22,006 nucleotides of DNA from a virus: positions 1 through 22,006 of IMG/VR virus record IMGVR_UViG_3300003267_000193; one strand, written 5' to 3'. The position numbers and the translations under genes are program-made. The stretch's first letter is position 1; every line of letters begins with the position of its first letter. Shown piece by piece: positions 2,176-22,006 of the stretch. Under the pieces are notes generated by a model. It ran no database searches. It was not told where the DNA came from and worked only from the letters and a program-made list of their open reading frames with translations.

Positions 2176-3566
2176 TCGACGACGCGCAGGGACACGGCGA
2201 GGGCGATGGCACGATGCCGTTCAAGCTCTGGCCCGCCCAGATCGGCGTGATGTGGCAGCTCATGGTCGAGCGGCTGATCATCATCCTCAAAGCGCGGCAG
2301 CTCGGGATTAGCTGGATCTGCTGCGCGTACGCGCTCTGGCTCTGCCTCTTTCAAGCTGGCAAGTTCGTGCTGATCTTCTCCAAAGGCCAGAACGAAGCCA
2401 ACGAGATGCTCTCGCGCATCCGCAAGCTGTATGAACGGCTTCCGGATTGGCTCAAAGCCGCCGCGCCGCAGCTCATCAAGAGCAACACGACCGAGCTGGA
2501 GTGGTCGAACGGGTCGCGCATCGAAAGCCTGCCGGCGACCAAGAGCGCCGGGCGTAGTCTCACCGCCACCCTGGTCATCTTGGATGAGGCGGCATTCCTA
2601 CTCTTCGCCAGCGAGCTCTACACGGCACTCAAACCGACGATCGACGCTGGCGGTCAGCTCATCATCCTGTCGACGGCCAACGGGATCGGCAACCTGTTTC
2701 ATCAGCTCTGGACCCGTGCAAGCGCTGGCCTCAACAAGTTCAAGACGATTTTCCTGCCCTGGTGGTCGCGGCCAGGCCGAGACGCGGCGTGGTACGCGGC
2801 GCAGCTGGCCGAGTATACCGATGGGGCGATGGTCAAGCAGGAATACCCGGCGACCGCGATCGAGGCGTTTTTAGTCAGCGGCCGCGTGCGCTTCCAGCAG
2901 GCATGGATTGCCAAGCAGGCGCCGCATCTGATTGACCCGATCGACCTTGCGCACGCGCCGGAACGCTTTCGCCCCGCGCTCGCCGCGATCGATGGACTCC
3001 TCTTCTACGCACCACCGCAGCTCGGCCGGCGCTACATCCTGGCCGCCGACGTGGCTGAGGGAACCGAGACGGGCGACTACTCGGCCGCAGTCCTGATTGA
3101 CGCCGAGTCCTGGGTCGAGCTGGCCAGCCTGCACGGGCATTGGGAGCCCGACCAGTACGCCGCGTATCTCTGGGCACTTGCACAAGTGTACGGCGCCGAG
3201 ATCGGCGTCGAACGCAATAACCACGGCCATGCGGTGCTGGTCGCACTCAAGAACCTGGGCGCGCACAAGATCGCGCTGGGCCACGATGGCAAGCGCGGAT
3301 GGCTCACGAACGCACAGACCAAGCCCCAGGCGATCGATCTCCTGGCGCAGGCGCTGCGCGATGGCTCGCTCGCCGTGCGCACGCAGGCCGCGCTCGAAGA
3401 GATGGCAATCTACCGGACCCTGAAGGATGGCGACACGGGCGCGCCGAACGGATACCACGATGATTATGTGATGGCCTGGGCGATCGCGCTGATGCTGGCC
3501 CGCCGGCCATCCACCAGCACGACCAGCAAAAGCCGCGTCGTCACCGCCGAGCAACTAGGACTCTAA
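2094..3566 (+). CDS. terL: terminase large subunit (ATPase and nuclease of DNA packaging)
   Basis: 490 residues, the usual size for the family. The ATPase domain has a deviant Walker A motif KARQLGIS (66-73), a Walker B LVILDEAAF (D164/E165) and a coupling motif LSTANG. The C-terminal RNase H-like nuclease shows its acidic residues in AADVAEGTETGDY (near D319), GVERNNHG (near E373) and YHDDYVMAWAIAL (near D456/D457). The protein pumps DNA into the prohead through the portal and cuts the concatemer. Its start lies 82 bases inside the small-subunit gene, and AGGA sits almost against the ATG, so translational coupling is likely. The stop overlaps the portal start (TAATG). Confidence 0.95.
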   Translation: MATPDDTAVEYAKCAADAAYFTDTYGVIDDAQGHGEGDGTMPFKLWPAQIGVMWQLMVERLIIILKARQLGISWICCAYALWLCLFQAGKFVLIFSKGQNEANEMLSRIRKLYERLPDWLKAAAPQLIKSNTTELEWSNGSRIESLPATKSAGRSLTATLVILDEAAFLLFASELYTALKPTIDAGGQLIILSTANGIGNLFHQLWTRASAGLNKFKTIFLPWWSRPGRDAAWYAAQLAEYTDGAMVKQEYPATAIEAFLVSGRVRFQQAWIAKQAPHLIDPIDLAHAPERFRPALAAIDGLLFYAPPQLGRRYILAADVAEGTETGDYSAAVLIDAESWVELASLHGHWEPDQYAAYLWALAQVYGAEIGVERNNHGHAVLVALKNLGAHKIALGHDGKRGWLTNAQTKPQAIDLLAQALRDGSLAVRTQAALEEMAIYRTLKDGDTGAPNGYHDDYVMAWAIALMLARRPSTSTTSKSRVVTAEQLGL

Positions 3567-4963
3567 TGCCCTCGTTCATCCAGCGCATCACGAATTTCAT
3601 CCGCGGCACTCGGGCAGGGTCTGCGACGACCACCATCGACCTGACGCCCGCGCCGCCGATGCCGACCGCCGAGCTCCAGCGCTTCGCGGTCGAGCGCGAT
3701 CGCACGGCGATTATCCAGATCGTGCGGCGGATGGTCGACGAAGACCCGCGCGCCGCGCGCCTTGTTGCCGATCTGGCCAGAGACGCCACGCGCGGCGGCT
3801 TTAGTGTCAAAGTCCAGCGCGGCAATGGCTCCGCGCGGGCGAATGCCGAGGCGGCCGCCCTGATCGAGCGCCTGGGCCTGGCCGAGGCGGTGATGGACTG
3901 GGCGAAGTTCGCGTTCAAAGAGGGCGATGCGTTTCTCGAGATCGGCGTCGACGCCAATAACGATATCGTCGCCGTCACGCGCAAGCCAGTCCTGCAGATG
4001 CACCGCCAGAGCGACGACCGCGACCAATTTCCCGATCCCACGCGCGCCTACTGGTGGGCCGATGAGCTCTGGATGGGCATGGACGCCCCGCGCGATGCCG
4101 TCTGGTTTGCCGATTGGCAGATCCTGCATGTCCGCTGGGACCACGACAGCGCGCAGCGCTACGGGCGCCCGCTGTTTGCGAGTGCGCGCAAACAGTGGAA
4201 GCGCGTGGACGAGGGCGAGACGGACATGGCCGTGCGGCGCAAGACCCGTGCCGGCCTCAAGTACAATCACAAATTCCCCGACGGCACCGCGCCGGATGTC
4301 ATCGAGACCTACAAAGAGCAGAACAAGGACGCGCTCGGCAATCCGACCGCGGCGATAAGCGACTTCTTCGGCACGACCGATATCACGGCGATCGAGGGCG
4401 ACGGCCGCCTCGCCGAGATTGGCGATGTCAAGCACCATCTCGCGACCTGGGGATTGGCCTCACCGCTCCCGCTCTCGCTGCTCGGCTACGGCGAAGACCT
4501 CAACCGCGATGTGCTGGACGACCAGAAGAAACAGTACGACCGCGCGCTCGACGGCGTGTGCCTCTGGATTGACAAAGAGATCATCCAGCCGCTGATCGAA
4601 CTGCAATGGCTCCTCAAGGGTATCTGGCCCGCATCGCTTACGTATCAGATCACCCGCCCGAGCCGCAACCCGATCACCCCGGCTGACCTGGCCTCGGCCG
4701 GCGATGCTGCTCAGAAACTCAAAGAGACCGGCGTGATTGCCGACGTGCTGCTGCTGCGGTTTCTCGCGCAGATCATCCCGAATCTCGATCCCGAGGAGGC
4801 CATGCAACTGCTCCAGCAGCAGCAGGAAGAACAGGCCGCCCGCCAGCCAGCACCGCAACCGCAGGTGCTACCCGGTAGCAACCAGGGCAATCAGCCGCCA
4901 GGCCAGGGAGACCAGGGCCAGCAGGGCGATGGGCAGCCGAGCGGCGAGGGTCAGCAGCAATGA
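3566..4963 (+). CDS. portal protein
   Basis: 465 residues. The portal forms the dodecameric ring at the capsid vertex through which DNA enters and to which the tail is joined. Support comes from its place right after the large terminase, its length, and portal-like stretches such as DWAKFAFKEGDAFLEI (about 110-127), WQILHVRWDHDSAQRYGRPL (about 187-206) and LGYGEDLNRDVLDDQKKQYD. The last 60 residues are low-complexity Gln/Pro/Gly, a common portal tail. A TGCTAC-CCG-GTAGCA hairpin repeat lies inside this tail coding region at 4866-4880. The start shares one base with the terminase stop; the end overlaps the next gene as ATGA. Confidence 0.9.
   Translation: MPSFIQRITNFIRGTRAGSATTTIDLTPAPPMPTAELQRFAVERDRTAIIQIVRRMVDEDPRAARLVADLARDATRGGFSVKVQRGNGSARANAEAAALIERLGLAEAVMDWAKFAFKEGDAFLEIGVDANNDIVAVTRKPVLQMHRQSDDRDQFPDPTRAYWWADELWMGMDAPRDAVWFADWQILHVRWDHDSAQRYGRPLFASARKQWKRVDEGETDMAVRRKTRAGLKYNHKFPDGTAPDVIETYKEQNKDALGNPTAAISDFFGTTDITAIEGDGRLAEIGDVKHHLATWGLASPLPLSLLGYGEDLNRDVLDDQKKQYDRALDGVCLWIDKEIIQPLIELQWLLKGIWPASLTYQITRPSRNPITPADLASAGDAAQKLKETGVIADVLLLRFLAQIIPNLDPEEAMQLLQQQQEEQAARQPAPQPQVLPGSNQGNQPPGQGDQGQQGDGQPSGEGQQQ
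4866..4880 (+). repeat. TGCTAC-CCG-GTAGCA hairpin, copy inside portal gene
   Basis: A perfect 6-bp stem with a CCG loop. The identical 15-mer recurs at 15590-15604 and 19522-19536, and a variant at 11921-11956. This copy is translated as part of the low-complexity portal tail (VLPGS), a place that tolerates insertions. Confidence 0.7.
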
Positions 4964-5157: not shown

Positions 5158-5453
5158 TCATCCACGCCAAGCAGGCCACCGTCGAATTCTCCAACGACGG
5201 CGAGATGTGGGAGCCCTTACCCGCCTTCGATGGCTTCATCGAACGCGAGTGCAAGCCGATCAAGGTGCTCTACACCGAGCCCGCCGAGCCCTTCACGATT
5301 GAGATCGAGTTCAAGGCTCCCAGTCGATCGAAGATTAATCGCCTCTACCGAACACTGCGCCGCCTAACCGGCTATGGTCCGGCCGGCAAGCGCGGTACAT
5401 CCCCACGACGCGCCGCGCGCCGGCGCCACCATCGGAAGCTCAAGCGACGCTAA
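5154..5453 (+). CDS. small hypothetical protein with basic C-terminal tail
   Basis: 99 residues. The first 65 are a likely beta-rich domain (MIIHAKQATVEFSNDGEMWE...KVLYTEPAEPFTIEIEFKAP). The last 30 are strongly basic (RRAARRRHHRKLKRR) and could bind nucleic acid. It is coupled to the preceding gene by ATGA. A noncoding stretch of 226 bases follows. The function is not recognised; a minor head protein or packaging accessory would fit the location. Confidence 0.6.
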   Translation: MIIHAKQATVEFSNDGEMWEPLPAFDGFIERECKPIKVLYTEPAEPFTIEIEFKAPSRSKINRLYRTLRRLTGYGPAGKRGTSPRRAARRRHHRKLKRR

Positions 5454-5457
5454 TCAT

Positions 5458-5538
5458 CGCGGCGCCCTGCTAGCGGGCACCAGGATAGACCAGGAAGCGC
5501 ACGACCTGGGGCTGGTTCGAATCCGGCAGCCGCGACCA
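5458..5538 (+). other. tRNA-like element 1 (degenerate)
   Basis: The 3' half looks like a tRNA: T-arm GCTGG-TTCGAAT-CCGGC (5511-5527, five pairs with one G-T), then AGCCGCG (5528-5534), a discriminator A and an encoded CCA (5536-5538). CGCGGCG at 5458-5464 pairs with six of the seven acceptor bases. The middle does not fold as a normal D-arm and anticodon arm: CCAGG and CCTGG pair around a ten-base loop that lacks U33. It is therefore a relic or a tRNA-like structure, not a confident functional tRNA. Confidence 0.4.
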
Positions 5539-5560
5539 AACGTTACACCGTACTTTCCAT

Positions 5561-5656
5561 CGCGGCGGCTGCACTCCGTCCTGCGGAGTCACTGGCGGCC
5601 AATAGGTAAAGCCGGGTATGTCTCGGCGAAGTGGTTCGAATCCGCGGCCGCGCCCA
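5561..5656 (+). other. tRNA-like element 2 (atypical, possibly D-armless)
   Basis: The T-arm GTGG-TTCGAAT-CCGC (5631-5645) is followed by GGCCGCG, C and an encoded CCA (5654-5656). Two 5' partners are possible for the acceptor strand. GGCGGCC at 5594-5600 (six of seven pairs) gives a compact 60-base form with no D-stem, a ten-base linker and an anticodon arm GCCGG-GTATGTC-TCGGC (5611-5627). CGCGGCG at 5561-5567 gives a 93-base form that also encloses the hairpin ACTCCG-TCCTG-CGGAGT (5573-5589). Neither is canonical, since base 37 would be T in the compact form. The element shares its 5' and 3' ends with element 1. Confidence 0.35.
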
Positions 5657-5679
5657 TCCCCCCTACATCGGAGCACCCC

Positions 5680-8358
5680 ATGAAGAAATCCAAGATCGCC
5701 AAAGGCCAGCCGCTCGCCGAGCTGGCGAAAGGCTCCCTCGAATATACCTCAACGATGATCCACCAGGCATTCCGGTCGCAATTCCGCGCCGACGATATGT
5801 ACTGGAACTGGATGATCTGCGAGATCTTCGCCGAGTACGTGATCGTCTATGACTCGCAGCTGCCGCCGGATGAATACTGGCGCGTGCATTACACCACCGC
5901 CCAGACGAGCTATCAATTCGCGTCCCGCGATGCGTGGGAATTGGTCGAGCTGGCCTACCAATCGGCCGCACGCGACGAGGCGATCCGCGTCCACCGCGCG
6001 CCGAGTATTGCGGCCAGTTTCACTACAAGCGGCGACGGCATCCCGCTGGTCGAAAGCCTCGATCGTACCCGCCTCGAACTCTGCGAGGCGCAGGCCGGCA
6101 AACCGCGCCGAATTCGAGCGCGCGGCATGACCGCCGATATCATCAACCGCAATAATCGGCGCTATGCAAGTGAGGTGCTACGCGCGGCCGTCGCCGAGGC
6201 GCAACCCCTGGCCGAGCGCGGCGAGCTGCTGGCCGAGTCAGGGCACCCCACCGATAAGCCGAGCGGCACGGCCGATATCTTAGAATCGCTCGTCCGCTGG
6301 GATTCGATCGTCTTCGACGGCGGCGAGGTGCTGCTGGAAGGTGAGATCATCCCCACATCCAAAGGCCGCGACCTGATCACGATCATGGAAGCCAAGGTCT
6401 ACCCGCGACTCAGCCAGCGCGCCTACGGCAGGGCCGAGCAGGTCGAAGAGGGCGGCCGGCGCTTCCTGGATATCAAGGAACTCCACATCACCGGCTACGA
6501 CCTGGTGATGGACCCCGGCGACCCCACTGCCGCCACCCTGGCATTCGAATCCTTCAACCCACAACCTATCACAGGAGATCCCCCCACTATGGACCGTCTG
6601 ACCCTAGAAGCCCTGCGCACCGAGTATCCCGAGCTGGTGGCGCAGATCGTCGCTGAAAGCAATGCCGCGCGCCGCGCGGAGCTGGAATCGGAGTTGGAAG
6701 CGCAGCGCCAGGAGAAGGCGCGCGAGCAGGAGATCATCCAGGCGCGCGAGCGCACGCTACGCGAGTCGCTGGGTCTCGGCGAGACCGACGACCTGGCCGC
6801 AGCCATCGAGCGCCAGAACACCGAATTGCAGCGCTTGCAGGAAGCCGAGCAGGCCCGCGCCGTCGCGGCCTACATCGCCGAGGAGTGCGGCAAGATCAGG
6901 TATGCCGAGATCCTCAAGCCGCAATTCGCCAAGCGCGTCGAGAACGCTCACGCCAAGACGATCGAGGAAGCCAAGCAGGCGATCGTGGCGGCCCGCGCCG
7001 AGTACGACGCGCTGCAGGCGAGCATCGAACTGCACGCGCGCGGCCGCGGCCAGCTCTCGATCCTCGGCCCCGTGCTGGAGTCGGAGCTGGGCGTGCCGGA
7101 GTTCGCGCGGGCCAGCTACGAGCTGACCGAATCGCTCATCCGCCACGGCCAGGCCGAGCCGCGCAACCTGCGCAAGCCATCGAATATTAACGAGCGCTTC
7201 ACGGTGCAATACCTGGAGCGGTTCGACAGCGCCTACCGCCACCACCTGGCCAACGAGGCGCGGCTGTTCAACGAGGCCGAGCAGACCAGCGATCTCAACC
7301 TGCCCTACTCGGTCATGCGCACGATCATCGCCGAGGCGCTGCCCGAGCTGGTCGCCCTGTCGATCTTCGACGTGCAGATGGTCGACATGGCCCCAACCAC
7401 CAATATCTGGTTCGAGAATTACGCGGCCGAGTCGGGCGCGACCGGCAGCGTTACCGATGAGGTCGTGACCGCCGCGCTCAACACCTGGGTGAACCTGGCC
7501 AACGCGCATCTCGATCCCGGCTCGGTCGTCCTGACCAACTCGGGCGCGACCGTCACGTACACCGAGGGCACCGATTACGTGGTGGATTACCTGGGCGGCC
7601 GCCTCATGGCGATCGCGACGATCACCAACGGCCAGTCGCTCAAGATCGACTACACCTACCAGGCCATGCGCCGCGGCGAGATGGCCGCGATCAAGCGCGG
7701 CAAGAACCAGCTGACCAGCAAGTCGCTGACCATCGCGGCCGATCGCCTGGCCGTTGAACTCTCGACCGAGTCGATCCAGTTCAGCCGGGCGGCGCTGGGC
7801 TACGACGCCCGCGCGCGGCTGCTGGCGCGACTCGTGCGCCAGATCCAGAACAAGATCGACGGCGGGCTGTTCTACCTGGCCCTGGCCGCCGCACTGCAAG
7901 TCGCGTCCAACAGCGGCGGCACCTGGACGGCCGCGAGCGATGATCCGGCGCTGCTGGCCAAGTACATCGGCGTGGCGAAGGTCAAGATCGCCAACCGCAA
8001 CTACGAGCCAACCGCCGTGCTGATGAGCAAGACCAACTCGGATCGCCTGGCGAACTGGGACGGCTACACGCAGGCGGGTTCGCGCGTCGATGCCGATCTC
8101 AACAGCGCGGGCTACTCCGGGCGGGTCAAAGGCTTGCCCGTCTTCGATACCACGAACTTCACCGACGGCTACGTGCTGCCGATCAACCGCGAGGTCGTGC
8201 TGTATCGCATCGCCCAGCCCATGCAGATCAAGGGACCGATCCCATCCTTCGACTTCTCGGCTGGCCAGGTCGTCGCCGGCGAGCAGTACTACGTCGAAGA
8301 GTTCAACGGCGCCGAGGCGCCCGTGCCGCAGAAGGCCGCGAGCGTCAAGATCGCCTAA
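5680..8358 (+). CDS. prohead protease - scaffold - major capsid protein fusion
   Basis: 892 residues in one uninterrupted frame. Residues about 145-290 look like a T4 gp21-type (S77) prohead protease: NRNNRRYASEVL, then SGHP with H189, SQRAYG with S245 as likely nucleophile, and ITGYDLVMDP. Residues about 304-470 are a charged coiled coil (EAQRQEKAREQEIIQARERT) typical of scaffold or delta domains. Residues about 480-892 fit an HK97-fold major capsid protein, with LPYSVMRTIIAEALPELV and a beta-rich insertion (VTYTEGTDYVVDYLGG). The ATG at 5680 has GGAG nine bases upstream; the frame is open further upstream by chance. The protease would mature the shell after assembly. The main uncertainty is whether the whole fusion or mainly a shorter internal product is made. 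Confidence 0.88.
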   Translation: MKKSKIAKGQPLAELAKGSLEYTSTMIHQAFRSQFRADDMYWNWMICEIFAEYVIVYDSQLPPDEYWRVHYTTAQTSYQFASRDAWELVELAYQSAARDEAIRVHRAPSIAASFTTSGDGIPLVESLDRTRLELCEAQAGKPRRIRARGMTADIINRNNRRYASEVLRAAVAEAQPLAERGELLAESGHPTDKPSGTADILESLVRWDSIVFDGGEVLLEGEIIPTSKGRDLITIMEAKVYPRLSQRAYGRAEQVEEGGRRFLDIKELHITGYDLVMDPGDPTAATLAFESFNPQPITGDPPTMDRLTLEALRTEYPELVAQIVAESNAARRAELESELEAQRQEKAREQEIIQARERTLRESLGLGETDDLAAAIERQNTELQRLQEAEQARAVAAYIAEECGKIRYAEILKPQFAKRVENAHAKTIEEAKQAIVAARAEYDALQASIELHARGRGQLSILGPVLESELGVPEFARASYELTESLIRHGQAEPRNLRKPSNINERFTVQYLERFDSAYRHHLANEARLFNEAEQTSDLNLPYSVMRTIIAEALPELVALSIFDVQMVDMAPTTNIWFENYAAESGATGSVTDEVVTAALNTWVNLANAHLDPGSVVLTNSGATVTYTEGTDYVVDYLGGRLMAIATITNGQSLKIDYTYQAMRRGEMAAIKRGKNQLTSKSLTIAADRLAVELSTESIQFSRAALGYDARARLLARLVRQIQNKIDGGLFYLALAAALQVASNSGGTWTAASDDPALLAKYIGVAKVKIANRNYEPTAVLMSKTNSDRLANWDGYTQAGSRVDADLNSAGYSGRVKGLPVFDTTNFTDGYVLPINREVVLYRIAQPMQIKGPIPSFDFSAGQVVAGEQYYVEEFNGAEAPVPQKAASVKIA
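6573..6591 (+). promoter_or_regulatory. internal Shine-Dalgarno and ATG at the protease/scaffold junction
   Basis: AGGAG at 6573-6577 precedes an in-frame ATG at 6589 (codon 304) by 11 bases. The C-rich spacer resembles that of the separate gene at 18320 (AAGGAG, C-rich spacer, ATG). The site falls exactly where the protease ends and the coiled coil begins. Confidence 0.6.
6589..8358 (+). CDS. predicted internally started scaffold - major capsid protein
   Basis: Translation from the internal ATG would give 589 residues, starting MDRLTLEALRTEYPELVAQI: a coiled-coil scaffold followed by the HK97-fold capsid domain, without the protease. This would let the phage make many capsid subunits per protease, as lambda does for scaffold Nu3 inside protease C. 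The support is the well-placed AGGAG and the domain boundary. A protease site between scaffold and capsid is likely near residues 470-485, where acidic stretches such as VLESELGVPEF occur, but I cannot fix the cut. Confidence 0.55.
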   Translation: MDRLTLEALRTEYPELVAQIVAESNAARRAELESELEAQRQEKAREQEIIQARERTLRESLGLGETDDLAAAIERQNTELQRLQEAEQARAVAAYIAEECGKIRYAEILKPQFAKRVENAHAKTIEEAKQAIVAARAEYDALQASIELHARGRGQLSILGPVLESELGVPEFARASYELTESLIRHGQAEPRNLRKPSNINERFTVQYLERFDSAYRHHLANEARLFNEAEQTSDLNLPYSVMRTIIAEALPELVALSIFDVQMVDMAPTTNIWFENYAAESGATGSVTDEVVTAALNTWVNLANAHLDPGSVVLTNSGATVTYTEGTDYVVDYLGGRLMAIATITNGQSLKIDYTYQAMRRGEMAAIKRGKNQLTSKSLTIAADRLAVELSTESIQFSRAALGYDARARLLARLVRQIQNKIDGGLFYLALAAALQVASNSGGTWTAASDDPALLAKYIGVAKVKIANRNYEPTAVLMSKTNSDRLANWDGYTQAGSRVDADLNSAGYSGRVKGLPVFDTTNFTDGYVLPINREVVLYRIAQPMQIKGPIPSFDFSAGQVVAGEQYYVEEFNGAEAPVPQKAASVKIA

Positions 8359-11972: not shown

Positions 11973-12794
11973 ATGCCCACCGAACAATTCGCCAATAATG
12001 CGACGACCACGCTGAATGGTGCGATCTCCAGCACCAGCGCGACCAGCATCACGGTCGCGAGCGCGTCGGCATTCCCATCCGTCGCGCAATTTCGCATCCT
12101 GATCGAGAGCGAGATTATGCTGGTGACGGCCGGCGCGGGCTCGACGACCTGGACCGTCACGCGCGGGATCGAGGGCACCACGGCGGCCACACATGCCGAC
12201 GGCGCGACCGTGCGGCAGATCCTCACGGCCGGCGCGCTCAAAATCTGGACGCCGAGTCAGGTGATCGCGCCGCGACATCATGGCCTCAAGGCCTGGAATT
12301 ACGATCCGGGCACCACCAGCTCGAGCTCGGCGAATGTCTCGGGCACGATCTACGCGCAGAAGATCTACCTCCCCGAAGATATGCCGATTACCAACATCGT
12401 CTTGGTGATTGGCACGGCCGGCGCCACGCTGACCAGCGGGCAGAGCCTGGTCGGCCTGTACTCGCAGACCGGCACGCAGATCGGCGTGAGCGCTGACCAG
12501 TCGGCCAACTGGACATCCAGCGGCGTCAAGACGATCGCGCTCACGAGCGGCCCCTTCAGCGTCTCGGGCGGGCCGGATAATTACTGCTATGTCCTGGTGA
12601 TGTGCAATGGCACGACGCCGGCCGCGTTCACGCGCGCCAGCGCGAACTTCAACGCCGGGAATGTCGGCCTGGCCGCCGCCGATGGCTTCCGCTTCGGCGT
12701 GCAGGGGACGAGTCAGACCGCACTCCCATCCTCGTTCACGGTCAGTAGCCTGACGACCACCAACGCCCTGTGCTTCTGGGTCGGCCTCAGCTAA
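11973..12794 (+). CDS. tail fibre or baseplate-type adhesion protein
   Basis: 273 residues. Residues about 10-90 (LNGAISSTSATSITVASASA, MLVTAGAGSTTWTVTRGIEG, then THADGATV) match a small beta domain that is frequent at the N terminus of phage fibre and spike proteins. The C-terminal 170 residues form a predicted beta-sandwich (LKAWNYDPG, IYLPEDMPITNIVLVIGTAG, FTVSSLTTTNALCFWVGLS) suited to ligand binding. It lies between the spike and the repeat protein, so the three probably form the receptor-binding apparatus. No strong ribosome-binding site is seen upstream. The stop overlaps the strong site of the next gene. Confidence 0.7.
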   Translation: MPTEQFANNATTTLNGAISSTSATSITVASASAFPSVAQFRILIESEIMLVTAGAGSTTWTVTRGIEGTTAATHADGATVRQILTAGALKIWTPSQVIAPRHHGLKAWNYDPGTTSSSSANVSGTIYAQKIYLPEDMPITNIVLVIGTAGATLTSGQSLVGLYSQTGTQIGVSADQSANWTSSGVKTIALTSGPFSVSGGPDNYCYVLVMCNGTTPAAFTRASANFNAGNVGLAAADGFRFGVQGTSQTALPSSFTVSSLTTTNALCFWVGLS

Positions 12795-12807
12795 GGAGGT
12801 CGGCATG
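12793..12807 (+). promoter_or_regulatory. strong Shine-Dalgarno of the repeat protein gene
   Basis: AAGGAGGT (12793-12800) is a near-perfect match to the 16S rRNA tail, four bases before the ATG at 12805, and overlaps the TAA of the previous gene. It fixes the start and suggests high translation with reinitiation. Confidence 0.8.
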
Positions 12808-15030
12808 GCGACAGCGCTCTACCTCACGAGCATCAGTTCGGATGTCAACCCGGGCAGCGAGGACGAGCGCCTGGCGCAGCTGACGCGCGGTAGCGGCGTC
12901 ACATCCTCGGATGCGACCGCGACCGTCGCCGGACCAACCGCTGGCGTGCAGGCGCAGCTGAGCGGCGCGGGTCTCACCTGGCTCTCCAACCCGCTGAACG
13001 GTGTCACGATCAGCGGGACGATTACCTTTAACATCTGGGGTTCCGAGTCGGCCGCGCAGGCCAATGCCGGCTTCGATGTGCTCGTCGAGCGCTGCAATGC
13101 CTCGGGCGTCGTGCAATCCACGATCCTGCGCTCGGAGCGCGGCACCGAGATGGGCACCACGTCCAGCGCGAACACCTGGACCGGCACGCCGACCTCGACC
13201 ACGCTGAGTACGAACGATCGCATCAAGATCACCGTGTTCGCCAATGACGCCGGCGGCACGATGACGGCCAGTAGCCGGACCTTTACGCTGCGGTTCAATG
13301 GCTCCAGCAGCGGCGCCGACGGCGATACCTTCGTTCAGTTCACCGAGACGCTGACCGAGAACCTGGCGACACGGACCGGCGATCTGAGCCAATCCCAAGC
13401 GAATCAGACGCTCAATCCCAACGGAGCCGGCGCCGTGGCGATCGCCGGTTCCCTTTCGGCCAGCCAGGCGGCCGAGACGCTGAGCGCGACGATCGAGTCT
13501 CCCTGGCAGGCACCGACCGCTTTCACCGCGCAACTGGGCACGCCGTATAGCGTGCTCGCCGGGATTGTCCTGGGCAGCGATCTCGATACCGGCGCGCGGA
13601 TCGGATCGCTCACGCAGACCCAGGCCGCCGAGACACTGAGCGCGGCCGGTGCGGTGGCCCTTGCCGGCTCCCTTTCGATCACCCAGGCCGCCGAGACACT
13701 GAGCGCGGCCGGCGTCGTCGGCGCAGCCGGCATCATTGGCGATGCCAGTATCACCCAGGCGGCCGAGACACTGAGCGGGGCCGGCGCGGCCCTGATTGCA
13801 GGAAGCGCCGCGCCAAGCCAGGCCGCCGAGATGCTGAGCGCGGCCGGCGCCGTGGCCCTGGTCGGCTCCCTTTCGACGACCCAGGCCGCCGAGACCCTGA
13901 GCGCCAGCGGCAGTACGACGACCAACGGCACCTATCGCGGGTCGTTCGGCTACCAGGACGCACGCACCTATCAAGGCACGGCCAGCAGTATCACCGGGAG
14001 TGCCACGCCGAGCCAGGCGGCCGAGACGCTGAGCGCGGCCGGTGCGGTGCTGATTGCAGGAAGCGCCGCGCCAACCCAGGCCGCGCAGACCCTTGCCGCC
14101 ACGGCGACCGGCGCTATCGCCGGTTCCCTTTCGAGCACCCAGGCGGCCGAGACGCTCAGCGCCAGCGGCACGAACCCGATCGCCGGCGCCCTCGCACAAA
14201 CCCAGGCAGCGCAGACCCTTGCCGCCAGCGCTGCGGTCGCCCTGGTCGGCTCCCTCACGAAGACCCAGGCCGCCGAGACGTTGAGCGCGGCCGGGAGCAC
14301 TGGATCGGGCACCGGCACCTATCGCACGGCAGTGGGCTACCGGGCGGCGGTCAATTACCTCTCGGGCGCAAGCGCGATCGTCGGTACCCTCTCGACCACC
14401 CAGGCGGCCGAGACGCTGAGCGCGGCCGCAACGCACCCGGTGAGCGGCGCCCTGGCGAAGACCCAGGCCGCCGAGACACTGAGCGCGGCCGGCGCGGTCA
14501 GCGGCGCCACCGGCATGTACCGATCGGCGTACGGCTACCGCGACACCCTTTCCTATCGCGGCAGCACGGCAGCCACGATCGGAACGCTGGCGAGCAGCCA
14601 GGCCGCCGAGATCCTGAGCGCCAGCGGCCGAGTCGCGATCGCCGGCGTCCTCTCGACCAGCCAGGCCGCCGAGACACTGAGCGCAGCGGCGATCCATCCG
14701 ATCGTCGGCGCACTCGCAGCCACCCAGGATGCCGAGACGCTGAGCGCCAGCGGCAGCAGCCTCGCCATCCGTACCGGCACACTGGCCGCCATCCAGGATG
14801 CCGAGACACTGAGCGCGACCGGCCTGATCGCGGCCACCGTGCGCGCCCGGCTCCACGGCCGCACCGTTGTCGAGACGGTCATGCGTGGGACGGCCAGAGT
14901 GGAGACCCGGCTGCACGGCGCCGCCCACCGATCGGTCACGCGCATGAGCGCCAGCGCCACCCCCGCCACCTTCCTGCACGGCCGCACCACTCGATCCGCG
15001 ACTCTCACCGGTACGGCGCAAAGGACATAG
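12805..15030 (+). CDS. large repeat-built fibre-like structural protein
   Basis: 741 residues in three parts. Residues 1-192 are a globular beta-rich head domain (GVTISGTITFNIWGSES, DVLVERCNASGVVQ, RIKITVFANDAGGTM). Residues about 193-672 hold 18 copies of a unit of roughly 21 residues with core TQAAETLSAAGAV. Three of the copies carry an inserted Tyr/Arg-rich cassette of the type GTYRGSFGYQDARTYQG. Residues about 673-741 are a basic tail of ten-residue repeats (LHGRT, MRGTA, LHGAA). The repeats suggest a long fibrous stalk, perhaps a beta-solenoid. The gene follows the spike and fibre genes. Similar ATQA..TLSA repeats occur in other phage proteins, but I know of no structure. Confidence 0.7.
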   Translation: MATALYLTSISSDVNPGSEDERLAQLTRGSGVTSSDATATVAGPTAGVQAQLSGAGLTWLSNPLNGVTISGTITFNIWGSESAAQANAGFDVLVERCNASGVVQSTILRSERGTEMGTTSSANTWTGTPTSTTLSTNDRIKITVFANDAGGTMTASSRTFTLRFNGSSSGADGDTFVQFTETLTENLATRTGDLSQSQANQTLNPNGAGAVAIAGSLSASQAAETLSATIESPWQAPTAFTAQLGTPYSVLAGIVLGSDLDTGARIGSLTQTQAAETLSAAGAVALAGSLSITQAAETLSAAGVVGAAGIIGDASITQAAETLSGAGAALIAGSAAPSQAAEMLSAAGAVALVGSLSTTQAAETLSASGSTTTNGTYRGSFGYQDARTYQGTASSITGSATPSQAAETLSAAGAVLIAGSAAPTQAAQTLAATATGAIAGSLSSTQAAETLSASGTNPIAGALAQTQAAQTLAASAAVALVGSLTKTQAAETLSAAGSTGSGTGTYRTAVGYRAAVNYLSGASAIVGTLSTTQAAETLSAAATHPVSGALAKTQAAETLSAAGAVSGATGMYRSAYGYRDTLSYRGSTAATIGTLASSQAAEILSASGRVAIAGVLSTSQAAETLSAAAIHPIVGALAATQDAETLSASGSSLAIRTGTLAAIQDAETLSATGLIAATVRARLHGRTVVETVMRGTARVETRLHGAAHRSVTRMSASATPATFLHGRTTRSATLTGTAQRT
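13381..14820 (+). repeat. coding tandem repeat array, 18 units of about 63 bp
   Basis: Units of about 63 bases, many sharing the core ACCCAGGCCGCCGAGACNCT or close variants, are arranged head to tail. The array is broken by longer units at about residues 230-265, 373-390, 502-520 and 568-585 of the protein. High DNA identity between units makes copy-number change by recombination likely, and also makes short-read assembly errors possible here. Confidence 0.85.
14827..15027 (+). repeat. coding ten-residue repeats at the C terminus
   Basis: The last 65-70 residues of the repeat protein read as about six degenerate ten-residue units beginning LHGRT, MRGTA, LHGAA, MSASA, LHGRT and LTGTA, each followed by Arg/Thr/Val-rich residues. 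The alternation is different from the upstream 21-residue units, so this is a second repeat class in the same protein. Confidence 0.6.
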
Positions 15031-17908: not shown

Positions 17909-18256
17909 ATGGCTCGTGCAGCACTCACCAAGCAGACCATCACGCACGCCGGCCAGGCGCTGACCTACACCGCCCCGACCGGCGCTGGCGCCAACAACGG
18001 CTGGACCTGGGCCAACACCGGCGCCGAGATCCTCGAAATCAAGAATACCGACACGGTCACCCACACGCTCACGCTCAAGGCCAGCGCTTCGCTCGCCGGC
18101 ATCGCGCTGCAAGATCAGACCGTCACCGTCCCGGCCGCCGCGGCCGGCGCCCCCGGCTACGTCAAGGTTAAGCTGGCGACGGTCGCGTTCGGCGCGACCG
18201 GCAACGCCGATATCGATGTGGTTACCGGCATCACGGCCGCGCTGATCAGCGCGTAG
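17909..18256 (+). CDS. small Ig-like structural protein before the tail tube
   Basis: 115 residues, beta-rich: ITHAGQALTYTAPTGAGANN, AEILEIKNTDTVTHTLTLKA, DQTVTVPAAAAGAPGYVKVK and a final ADIDVVTGITAALIS. The pattern suggests one Ig-like or beta-sandwich domain of a virion surface protein. AAGGAG lies eight bases before the ATG. It sits just before the probable tail tube gene, so a tail or head decoration role is likely. A 63-base gap without a gene follows. Confidence 0.6.
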   Translation: MARAALTKQTITHAGQALTYTAPTGAGANNGWTWANTGAEILEIKNTDTVTHTLTLKASASLAGIALQDQTVTVPAAAAGAPGYVKVKLATVAFGATGNADIDVVTGITAALISA

Positions 18257-18769: not shown

Positions 18770-18776
18770 GAACGAT

Positions 18777-18804
18777 GAAGGCTGAAGGCTGAAGGCTGAA
18801 GGCG
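18777..18804 (+). repeat. heptanucleotide tandem repeat GAAGGCT x4
   Basis: Three exact copies of GAAGGCT and a fourth ending in G, starting eight bases after the tail tube stop. GATGAAGG at the left edge (18774-18781) is exactly complementary to CCTTCATC (18837-18844) in the next heptamer array, so the two arrays can pair. Confidence 0.8.
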
Positions 18805-18831
18805 CATTGCGAGCGCTGTACTCTTAGCCTC

Positions 18832-18859
18832 TTCATCCTTCATCCTTCACTGTTCATCC
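18832..18859 (+). repeat. heptanucleotide tandem repeat TTCATCC x4
   Basis: TTCATCC, TTCATCC, TTCACTG, TTCATCC, in exact seven-base phase. It is close to the reverse complement of the GAAGGCT array upstream (six of seven bases). Confidence 0.75.
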
Positions 18860-18864
18860 TTTCC

Positions 18865-19000: not shown

Positions 19001-19306
19001 ATGCCCCGTGGACGCAAACCCAAGACCACCCAGGCGATCACCGCCACGCCCGCGACCGTTGTTCTGTCCGCCCCGATCGTCGTCGATCGCTCGCGCCTGA
19101 CGCTCGGCGATATGCTGACCTTCTCGAAACTGAGCACCCTCGGCCAGGCCGACGCAGCTGCGCAGAATGCCGCGATGATTGAGATCCTGCCGGTCCTCGA
19201 TCGCCTGGTCGTCGGCGGCATCCTGGGCCGCCCCGCGACCGAGCTGACCGCGATCATGGAAGCGGTCGGCCAGCAGCTCAACGAGACGGCAAACCCAAAG
19301 ATCTAA
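19001..19306 (+). CDS. tail assembly chaperone (G protein)
   Basis: 101 residues in the zero frame, with AGGAGG five bases before the ATG. The N terminus is basic and low in complexity; residues about 45-90 (LTLGDMLTFSKLSTLGQADA, then VLDRLVVGGILGRP) form the helical core. Position just before the tape measure, small size and the frameshift signals at its 3' end identify it as the equivalent of lambda gpG. It would coat the tape measure during tail assembly and is absent from the finished virion. It shares its core with the antisense gene at 17479-17824. Confidence 0.8.
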   Translation: MPRGRKPKTTQAITATPATVVLSAPIVVDRSRLTLGDMLTFSKLSTLGQADAAAQNAAMIEILPVLDRLVVGGILGRPATELTAIMEAVGQQLNETANPKI

Positions 19307-19349
19307 GGCTGCGGATGATGAAACACTTCATGGGCCGACATCCGCAGCC
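19291..19349 (+). promoter_or_regulatory. programmed -1 frameshift site with stem-loop
   Basis: In the zero frame the codons read A AAC CCA AAG, so both A-AAC-CCA (19291-19297) and C-CCA-AAG (19294-19300) are in-phase X-XXY-YYZ slippery heptamers. A six-base spacer, which contains the zero-frame TAA (19304-19306), leads to the stem GGCTGCGGATG (19307-19317) with CATCCGCAGCC (19339-19349): eleven perfect pairs. The 21-base loop can itself form ATGAA-ACAC-TTCAT. Spacing and geometry match known stimulators of -1 shifts. Confidence 0.85.
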
Positions 19350-19512
19350 CTATGAATACCTCACGCTCATCCTGTGCCGGGATATCTACCACTGCACCCC
19401 CAGCGAGCTCGCCCGGCAAGACCCACAGGTCATCCTGGCGCACCTCACCGCGCTGGATGTCGAATCCGACTACCGCAGCATGCACAACGCCCCCAAAGTT
19501 GATGCCGCGTAG
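19300..19512 (+). CDS. T extension of the tail assembly chaperone (reached by -1 frameshift)
   Basis: After the shift translation continues DLRLRMMKHFMGRHPQPYEY and on through LTLILCRDIYHCTPSELARQ to a TAG at 19512, adding 70 residues. The full GT product would have about 170 residues. The frame is open through the slippery site with no stop, as a fusion requires. An ATG at 19315 lies within this frame, but it has no ribosome-binding site and sits inside the stem, so independent translation is less likely. In lambda the T part recruits the tail tube protein to the tape measure. Confidence 0.8.
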   Translation, partial: DLRLRMMKHFMGRHPQPYEYLTLILCRDIYHCTPSELARQDPQVILAHLTALDVESDYRSMHNAPKVDAA

Positions 19513-19705: not shown

Positions 19706-22006
19706 ATGGCTGATACGCAGATCCCCATAGTTGTCACCGTCATCGACAACGCATCGGGCGCGCTGAACCAAATTTCGACCGGCGCCCTGCGCTCCTTGGG
19801 CGATGCCGCGGTCAACATTGCCGGCCAGGCCGTTCAGGCCATGGCCGGTTTTGGTGCGTCCAGCCTGCAGGTCGCGGCCGACTTCGAAAAGGCGACCAGC
19901 ACCTTCGCCTCGGTGGCCGGCGGCGCCTTGAAGGATGCCGGCTTCACGCTCGACGACGTGAAGAACAAGGCGCTGGAGCTTGGCGCGCAAACCCAGTTCA
20001 GCGCAGCCCAGGCCCAGGAGGCGATGATCAACCTGGCCAAGGGTGGCGTGCCGGTCGCCGACATTATGGGCAAGGCGACCGATGCAACGCTGGCCCTGGC
20101 AGCGGCCGGCGATGTCGAGCTCGCGCCGGCCGCCGATATCGTGGCCAAGCAGCTGGGCGTGTGGGCCGATACCGGCGTGCAGGCGGCCGATGTCGCCAAC
20201 CTCATGGCCCAGGCCGCCAATGCCAGTACGGTCGATGTGCAGGAACTGGCGCTTGGTCTCTCGGCGGTCGGCGGCGTCGCCAAAGTCTCGGGCGTGTCCT
20301 TCCAAGACCTCACGCAGACCATGGCGCTGCTGGCGCCCGGGTTCTCGAGTGCATCGGATGCCGGCACCAGCTTCAAGACGATGCTCCTGGCGCTGCAAGG
20401 CAAATCGTCCGACGCCGTTGGCGTCATGAAGCAACTCAATATCATCTCGACCGACTGGGCATCGGTCGCCGGCGATCTCGGGATTGCCTTCGATGGCTCG
20501 GCGGCGAGCCTGGCCAAGGTCAAGGATGCGGCCATGCAACAGGTCGCGGTCCAATCGAAGGCCGCGATCGGGACCAAGGACTGGCAGAAGGCATGGGACG
20601 CCTTCCTGGGTGACTTCCAGACGAATGCTTTTTATGACCAATCCGGTCAGATGAAAAGCATGGATCAGGTCGCGCAGATTCTCCAGAACTCCCTCGCCGG
20701 CCTATCGGAAGAACAAAAGACGGCCGCGCTCAATACGATGTTCGGCACCGATGCGTATCGGGCCGCCGCGTTCATCGCGCAGGCTGGAGCGGCCGGCTTC
20801 CATCAGATGGCCGACTCTATGACCGCCGCCGGGAGCGCTGCCGAGCAGGCCGCCGTCCGGAATCAGAATTTCAAATTTGCGTGGGATTCGCTGCTCGGGA
20901 CCATCGAGACGATCCAGATCGTGATCGGCTCGGCGCTGCTACCCATCCTCACGCAGCTGACCAACGATGTCATTATCCCGGCCGCCAATGGGGTCTTGAC
21001 CTTCGCGCAATCGATCCTCTCAGCCAGCGATCCGATGGCCACGCTGACCGCCAGTATCAACAGTGCGGTGCCCGGGTTCGATTCCTTCGTTACCAGTATC
21101 ACGCAGATCATCAGCCAGGCCGCTGCGTTCCTCTCGACTGGTAATAATCTCGAAGCCGTGCTGGCCGGTATCGGCGTGGCGATCGCGGTCGGTGTGCTGC
21201 CGCCACTGGTCGCCGCTGCTGCTTCCTTCCTGGCCCTGGTCGCTCCGATCGTCGCCCTGATCGCGGTGGGCGCCCTCCTCTATAGCGCCTGGACCAATAA
21301 CTTCTTAGGTATCCAGGAGATTATCGGCAGCATCGTCGGCGTAGTCACGTCGATCATCTCACCGATTATCAGCACCTTCACTGCGATCGCATCCTTCGTT
21401 AGCGCCAATCTGATGCCGATCCTGGCCGGGGTCGGTACCGTCGTCGCCGGGCTGCTCATCCCGGCGCTGGCCTCGATCGCCGCGTACATCGCATTCGCTG
21501 CGCCGATCATCGCCGGGTTGTTCGCCGGGTGGGTGGTCGGCGCCGTCTCTGCTGCCGCCGCCACGCTGGCCGCCGCCGCGCCGCTGCTCCTGATTGGCGC
21601 CGCCGTCGCGCTCCTGTTCGCCGCCTGGCAAAATAACTGGTTCGGCATCCGCGATATCGTCGCCGCCGTCTGGGCCTATCTCCAGCCAATCTTCGCCCAG
21701 ATCGGCGTGTTCTTCACGTCCACACTACCCGCCGCGTTCTTCTCCGCCGTGGCCGCCGTGCAGCAATTCGCTGCACAGGTGCAGGCCGGCTGGGGCGTCC
21801 TGGTCGCCGGCGTCATGCAGTTCGTCGCCTCAGTGCAGGCCGGTTGGGGTGTGGTCGTCGCGGGTATCAGTTCCTTCATTTCCTCGGTGCAGGCGGGATG
21901 GGGCGTGGTCATCGACGGCGCCTCGGCGGCCTGGGCGGCAGTGGTTGCGGTCGTGCAGGGCGCGATCGCTGGCCTGGTCGGGATCTGGAATCAGATTACG
22001 GCTGGC
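19706..22006 (+). CDS. tail tape measure protein (3' end outside window)
   Basis: The frame stays open for 767 codons to the right edge. It begins MADTQIPIVVTVIDNASGAL and has the TP901-type core at residues about 60-115 (FEKATSTFASVAGG, LDDVKNKALELGAQTQFSAA, QAQEAMINLAKGG), followed by helical repeats (VWADTGVQAADVANLMAQAA). Two long hydrophobic stretches lie at about residues 487-531 and 569-642, each ending in AW-x-NN-x-x-GI. Three copies of an 18-residue unit starting VQAGWGV follow from residue 692. The protein sets tail length and is ejected with the DNA. Start is ATG 19706; a weak start fits low-copy expression. Confidence 0.92.
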   Translation, partial: MADTQIPIVVTVIDNASGALNQISTGALRSLGDAAVNIAGQAVQAMAGFGASSLQVAADFEKATSTFASVAGGALKDAGFTLDDVKNKALELGAQTQFSAAQAQEAMINLAKGGVPVADIMGKATDATLALAAAGDVELAPAADIVAKQLGVWADTGVQAADVANLMAQAANASTVDVQELALGLSAVGGVAKVSGVSFQDLTQTMALLAPGFSSASDAGTSFKTMLLALQGKSSDAVGVMKQLNIISTDWASVAGDLGIAFDGSAASLAKVKDAAMQQVAVQSKAAIGTKDWQKAWDAFLGDFQTNAFYDQSGQMKSMDQVAQILQNSLAGLSEEQKTAALNTMFGTDAYRAAAFIAQAGAAGFHQMADSMTAAGSAAEQAAVRNQNFKFAWDSLLGTIETIQIVIGSALLPILTQLTNDVIIPAANGVLTFAQSILSASDPMATLTASINSAVPGFDSFVTSITQIISQAAAFLSTGNNLEAVLAGIGVAIAVGVLPPLVAAAASFLALVAPIVALIAVGALLYSAWTNNFLGIQEIIGSIVGVVTSIISPIISTFTAIASFVSANLMPILAGVGTVVAGLLIPALASIAAYIAFAAPIIAGLFAGWVVGAVSAAAATLAAAAPLLLIGAAVALLFAAWQNNWFGIRDIVAAVWAYLQPIFAQIGVFFTSTLPAAFFSAVAAVQQFAAQVQAGWGVLVAGVMQFVASVQAGWGVVVAGISSFISSVQAGWGVVIDGASAAWAAVVAVVQGAIAGLVGIWNQITAG
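21779..21940 (+). repeat. 54-bp repeats inside the tape measure gene
   Basis: GTGCAGGC recurs at 21779, 21833 and 21887, exactly 54 bases apart, coding for VQAGWGVLVAG, VQAGWGVVVAG and VQAGWGVVIDG. Repeats of this kind with a regular Trp are common in tape measure proteins and can change tail length if copies are gained or lost. Confidence 0.75.

Follow-up and report, generated by a model that had tools for sequence, protein, structure and literature searches.

The 22-kb IMG/VR virus record analysed here, referred to as the window and possibly a fragment, very probably encodes a lambda-type G/GT pair of tail assembly chaperones produced by programmed −1 ribosomal frameshifting, judging from its sequence and that of its relatives. 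This is the most likely interpretation because a −1 relation between the two reading frames, slippery heptamers, downstream stems and neighbouring tape measure genes recur among the relatives, some of which lack a start codon for the T frame, and because a distant Bacillus phage homologue is annotated as a joined chaperone. The mechanism and its place in the genome are textbook, while the T family itself is poorly annotated.

All features of the locus lie on the + strand. The predicted short form of the chaperone, a 101-residue G-like ORF (19001–19306), was identified from the ORF list, a G homologue and an alignment with the G ORFs of ten relatives, and its last zero-frame codons are GCA AAC CCA AAG ATC TAA. 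The sequence AAACCCAAAG (19291–19300), in frame at the 3′ end of this ORF, has a single copy in the window and did not arise in 100 shuffles. It contains A_AAC_CCA (19291–19297) and C_CCA_AAG (19294–19300), both in the X_XXY_YYZ phase and with four bases (CCCA) in common, exactly as placed and phased in the earlier note. The six-base spacer said to hold the zero-frame stop can be read directly (ATCTAA, 19301–19306, ending with TAA at 19304–19306). The overlapping −1 frame is open from 19183 to 19509, straight through the slip site, and its post-shift part (19300–19512) comprises 70 codons from GAT 19300 to the stop at 19510–19512. The description of this part as a T-like domain is upheld by 28 relatives found by sequence; it carries the conserved motif LCRDIYHCTP, and changes in the T frame among 25 close relatives show a third-position bias. 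The structure model of T is helical and confident (pLDDT 90) and that of G is of low confidence; a fold search of both models against viral structures returned nothing significant.

The predicted stimulatory stem-loop (19307–19349) immediately follows the spacer. Direct reading and folding agree with the earlier description of a perfect stem with an inner mini-hairpin: the outer stem, GGCTGCGGATG/CATCCGCAGCC, pairs perfectly over 11 bp (19307–19317/19339–19349) and encloses a 5-bp inner hairpin, ATGAA/TTCAT (19318–19322/19327–19331), with a 7-base bulge on the 3′ side. Folded alone, the element has an energy of −21.9 kcal/mol (z = −5.1), and 0 of 200 shuffles fold as well; in a longer fold (116 nt) the minimum-energy structure differs and this hairpin is the centroid. 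Folds 3′ of the site in the relatives have a median z of −2.8, with 15 of 25 below −2 and many stems of 11–20 bp, and in most relatives the stem is placed directly 3′ of the site, being very long in L098, L068, L061 and L071. A structure at this position is a common, though not universal, feature of the G/GT class. An Rfam search gave a single sRNA match inside the G ORF (E = 0.034), which lies below the gathering score and was taken as chance.

The location directly before the tape measure gene, expected for G/GT, is established by the 3′ neighbour, an ORF that matches the PHROG tape measure family (E = 3 × 10−60) and the Pfam family PhageMin_Tail (5 × 10−31). Its start was taken as ATG 19706, the frame being open from GTG 19553, and it continues beyond the end of the window (19706–22006). 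On the other side of the G-like ORF a tail protein (PHROG 16194) is matched at 17909–18256, so that the putative chaperone is flanked by a tail protein gene and a tape measure gene; no major tail protein was identified by profile in the window. The intergenic region at 18770–18860 contains four exact TGAAGGC repeats (18776–18803) followed by TTCATCC-type repeats able to pair with them, and is possibly a terminator.

Relatives were drawn from IMG/VR, in which the window T retrieved 28 loci by sequence and 80 by profile, and the window G retrieved one (L003/L033; 36% identity, E = 2 × 10−12). Including the window, 68 loci were carried forward and were reduced to 33 with less than 85% T similarity, and an upstream ORF overlapping T is present in 25 of these and absent from the data for the other eight. 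In 23 of these 25 diverse families T is in a −1 relation to the upstream ORF, and in 22 of the 23 the final 16 codons contain an in-phase heptamer whose second triplet is of A or T, where about four would be expected; the types observed are CCCAAAG/A/C, GGGAAAC/G and AAAAAAC/A. Over all 25 families 23 heptamers were observed against 4.5 expected when codons were resampled with the amino acids kept (never more than 14 in a million draws), a count that includes the +1-related L103, whose heptamer is probably therefore due to chance; the two wrong phases gave four and three. All ten downstream ORFs tested matched tape measure families (L091 only modestly). Together these counts strongly back the predicted lambda-type −1 cassette before the tape measure gene. 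They also indicate that CCCAAAN, GGGAAAN and AAAAAAN replace one another freely as slippery motifs in a single T family while the −1 relation stays. The stop codon in the spacer, previously regarded as less usual, turns out to be the rule in this family, since 16 of 22 families have a zero-frame stop that starts no more than 3 nt past the heptamer.

Several relatives depart from this arrangement. In L095 (2693–3186) and L096 the −1 relation is followed by a GC-rich stem and the end of G, TCG GGG TCG TAG, has no A/T-type heptamer. In L055 (2649–3207; same contig as L018) T is in a +1 (or −2) relation to G and the overlap reads GGG AAA TTT CGA, in which UUU_C agrees with the pattern UUU_Ynn, named as +1-prone (PMC5009743); this single contig may reflect either an assembly indel or a change in the direction of the shift among members of one T family. 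The low-GC contigs L103 and L105 (about 2660–3186) have a G/T overlap in a +1 relation with the ATG of T just before the stop of G, and may represent plain overlapping genes, and in the low-GC T relatives L097, L101 and L106–L110 no sufficiently long overlapping G is seen. A first scan of bacterial genomes found nothing; a second found one Elusimicrobia MAG contig with a matching layout (L114, about 3900–4180), in which AAAAAAA and TAG are followed by a T-like −1 frame with the YHCTP motif, a possible prophage and a possible hint to the host of part of the T family.

Homology to annotated chaperones was found at the level of the family. Neither G nor T of the window alone has a significant match to any curated family: G matches nothing in Pfam or PHROG, a Pfam search with G and T gave nothing, DNA and protein searches against 50,697 phage records gave no match and a sequence search of solved structures produced nothing credible. 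PHROG 9001 ('tail assembly chaperone') is matched by ten of 30 T-family members (best E = 5.6 × 10−7) and by the T of the window only with E = 0.12. The T of L036 aligns weakly with Bacillus phage proteins (E = 0.06 and 0.02; 27.6%), and hhalign of the T-family profile against the T half of the Bacillus phage protein gave a probability of 95%. In the records of Bacillus phages 019DV002 and 276BB001 (MN176220 and MN176231) a joined tail assembly chaperone CDS lies between the major tail and tape measure genes, with a site that reads GAAAAAAAGTAA.

The earlier note described two overlapping slippery heptamers; the present comparison does not support a reading in which both work. When all 64 X_XXZ_ZZN motifs were measured in E. 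coli (Sharma et al., 2014; PMC4066793), C_CCA_AAG was the highest of the 64, reaching 54% with the IS3 pseudoknot (cf. PMC5009743), and only A_AAC_CCA and two other motifs remained below threshold even with that pseudoknot, although the host of this virus may differ. An overlapping second heptamer is present in four of 22 families, where chance predicts 2.85 (P about 0.32). The proposed check for conservation of both heptamers among relatives favours CCCAAAN, which recurs close to the stop of G in L032, L033, L037, L038, L039 and L045; in L033, whose G is the nearest to that of the window, CCCAAAA is retained but AAACCCA is replaced by GAACCCA. C_CCA_AAG is thus most likely the working heptamer, because A_AAC_CCA stays below threshold in E. 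coli (a host that may not be representative) and is lost in L033, and because double sites are no more frequent than chance; by geometry A_AAC_CCA qualifies as a heptamer, and it is probably not slippery.

The use of both overlapping heptamers as a tuned double site is a variant compatible with the G/GT reading, and an improbable one. All 12 distinct G sequences of the L039 group carry the double AAACCCAAAA unchanged; however, none of the four-fold sites of codons 65–70 varies in that group, so that the first A does not stand out. Further doubles occur in L033 and L071, and the literature searched yielded no phage example of overlapping or tandem slippery sites. There is a slim chance that in the real host both heptamers slip, giving two successive opportunities and one junction peptide; if so, the level of GT could be set to one that a single heptamer would not give. 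The peptide NPKDLR results from a slip at either heptamer and is unable to distinguish them, because AAG in the zero frame and AAA in the −1 frame both encode lysine.

The main rival to frameshifting is translational coupling, in which ribosomes that terminate at TAA 19304 would begin again at ATG 19315 in the −1 frame, making T a separate small protein. In the window itself this is possible by direct reading, as TAAGG lies six bases before ATG 19315 (19304–19317) and three in-frame ATGs (19315, 19318 and 19330) fall within 19315–19332; an early ATG or GTG is also present in several relatives. However, no ATG, GTG or TTG precedes the conserved motif in the T frame of L033, L036, L054, L058, L061 and L071, and L032, L068 and L088 have only late T starts. 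Similarity of the T-frame protein begins at the heptamer, ahead of ATG 19315, this ATG sits within the stem, and a restart would leave the heptamers unexplained, which together make coupling a very unlikely source of T. Slippage by RNA polymerase rather than the ribosome can be set aside almost entirely, since runs of seven or eight A are seen in relatives L034, L056 and L091 but the site in the window has no run of more than three equal bases and most relatives use CCCAAAN or GGGAAAN.

For programmed frameshifting we infer the following course. Most ribosomes would translate the 101 codons of the G frame to TAA 19304, whereas a minority would be paused by the hairpin at 19307–19349 with tRNA-Pro on CCA and tRNA-Lys on AAG, move back one base at C_CCA_AAG and read 70 more codons, producing a GT fusion joined at ...NPKDLR. 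The tendency to slip on AAG should vary with the lysine tRNA that decodes it. By analogy with lambda, G would coat the tape measure protein and the T part would recruit tail tube subunits, and neither G nor GT would be expected in the virion.

Two other regions of the window are unusual. A single 994-residue ORF (5374–8358) matches a head maturation protease over residues 244–406 (PHROG 207, E = 7 × 10−18) and an Ig-like-domain family over residues 687–771, and may be a protease–capsid fusion. A 741-residue protein with no PHROG match (12805–15030) is composed of numerous imperfect repeats, each about 21 residues long (SQAAETLSAAGAV..., 63-bp units), and the opposite strand carries an open frame that is nearly as long (12787–15021).

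With these results, an environmental tailed-phage family that is largely missing from curated profile libraries would join the known G/GT frameshift class. The T motif LCRDIYHCTP and a heptamer followed at once by a stop provide a signature by which annotation could join the two ORFs.

Among known systems, Bacillus phages 019DV002 and 276BB001 share with the window a distantly homologous T half, a stop directly after the heptamer and a G/GT-type gene order, but have an A_AAA_AAG heptamer and a very divergent sequence. The −1 sites of the IS3 family combine a slippery heptamer of the same kind with a downstream structure, and C_CCA_AAG has been measured in the IS911 and IS3 contexts (PMC4066793); the genes are unrelated, however, and the structure predicted in the window is a simple hairpin. 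The −1 frameshift of lambda G/GT (Levin 1993; Xu 2004, 2013, as cited in PMC5009743) is, as far as that account describes it, alike in its shift at X_XXA_AAG close to where a small gene before the tape measure gene ends and in its short protein with a C-terminally extended form, both the shift and the two products being predictions for the window. The window differs from lambda in having C_CCA_AAG for G_GGA_AAG, a strong stem six bases further on and the zero-frame stop within the spacer, and the likeness seen here between its G and T and those of lambda is one of layout.
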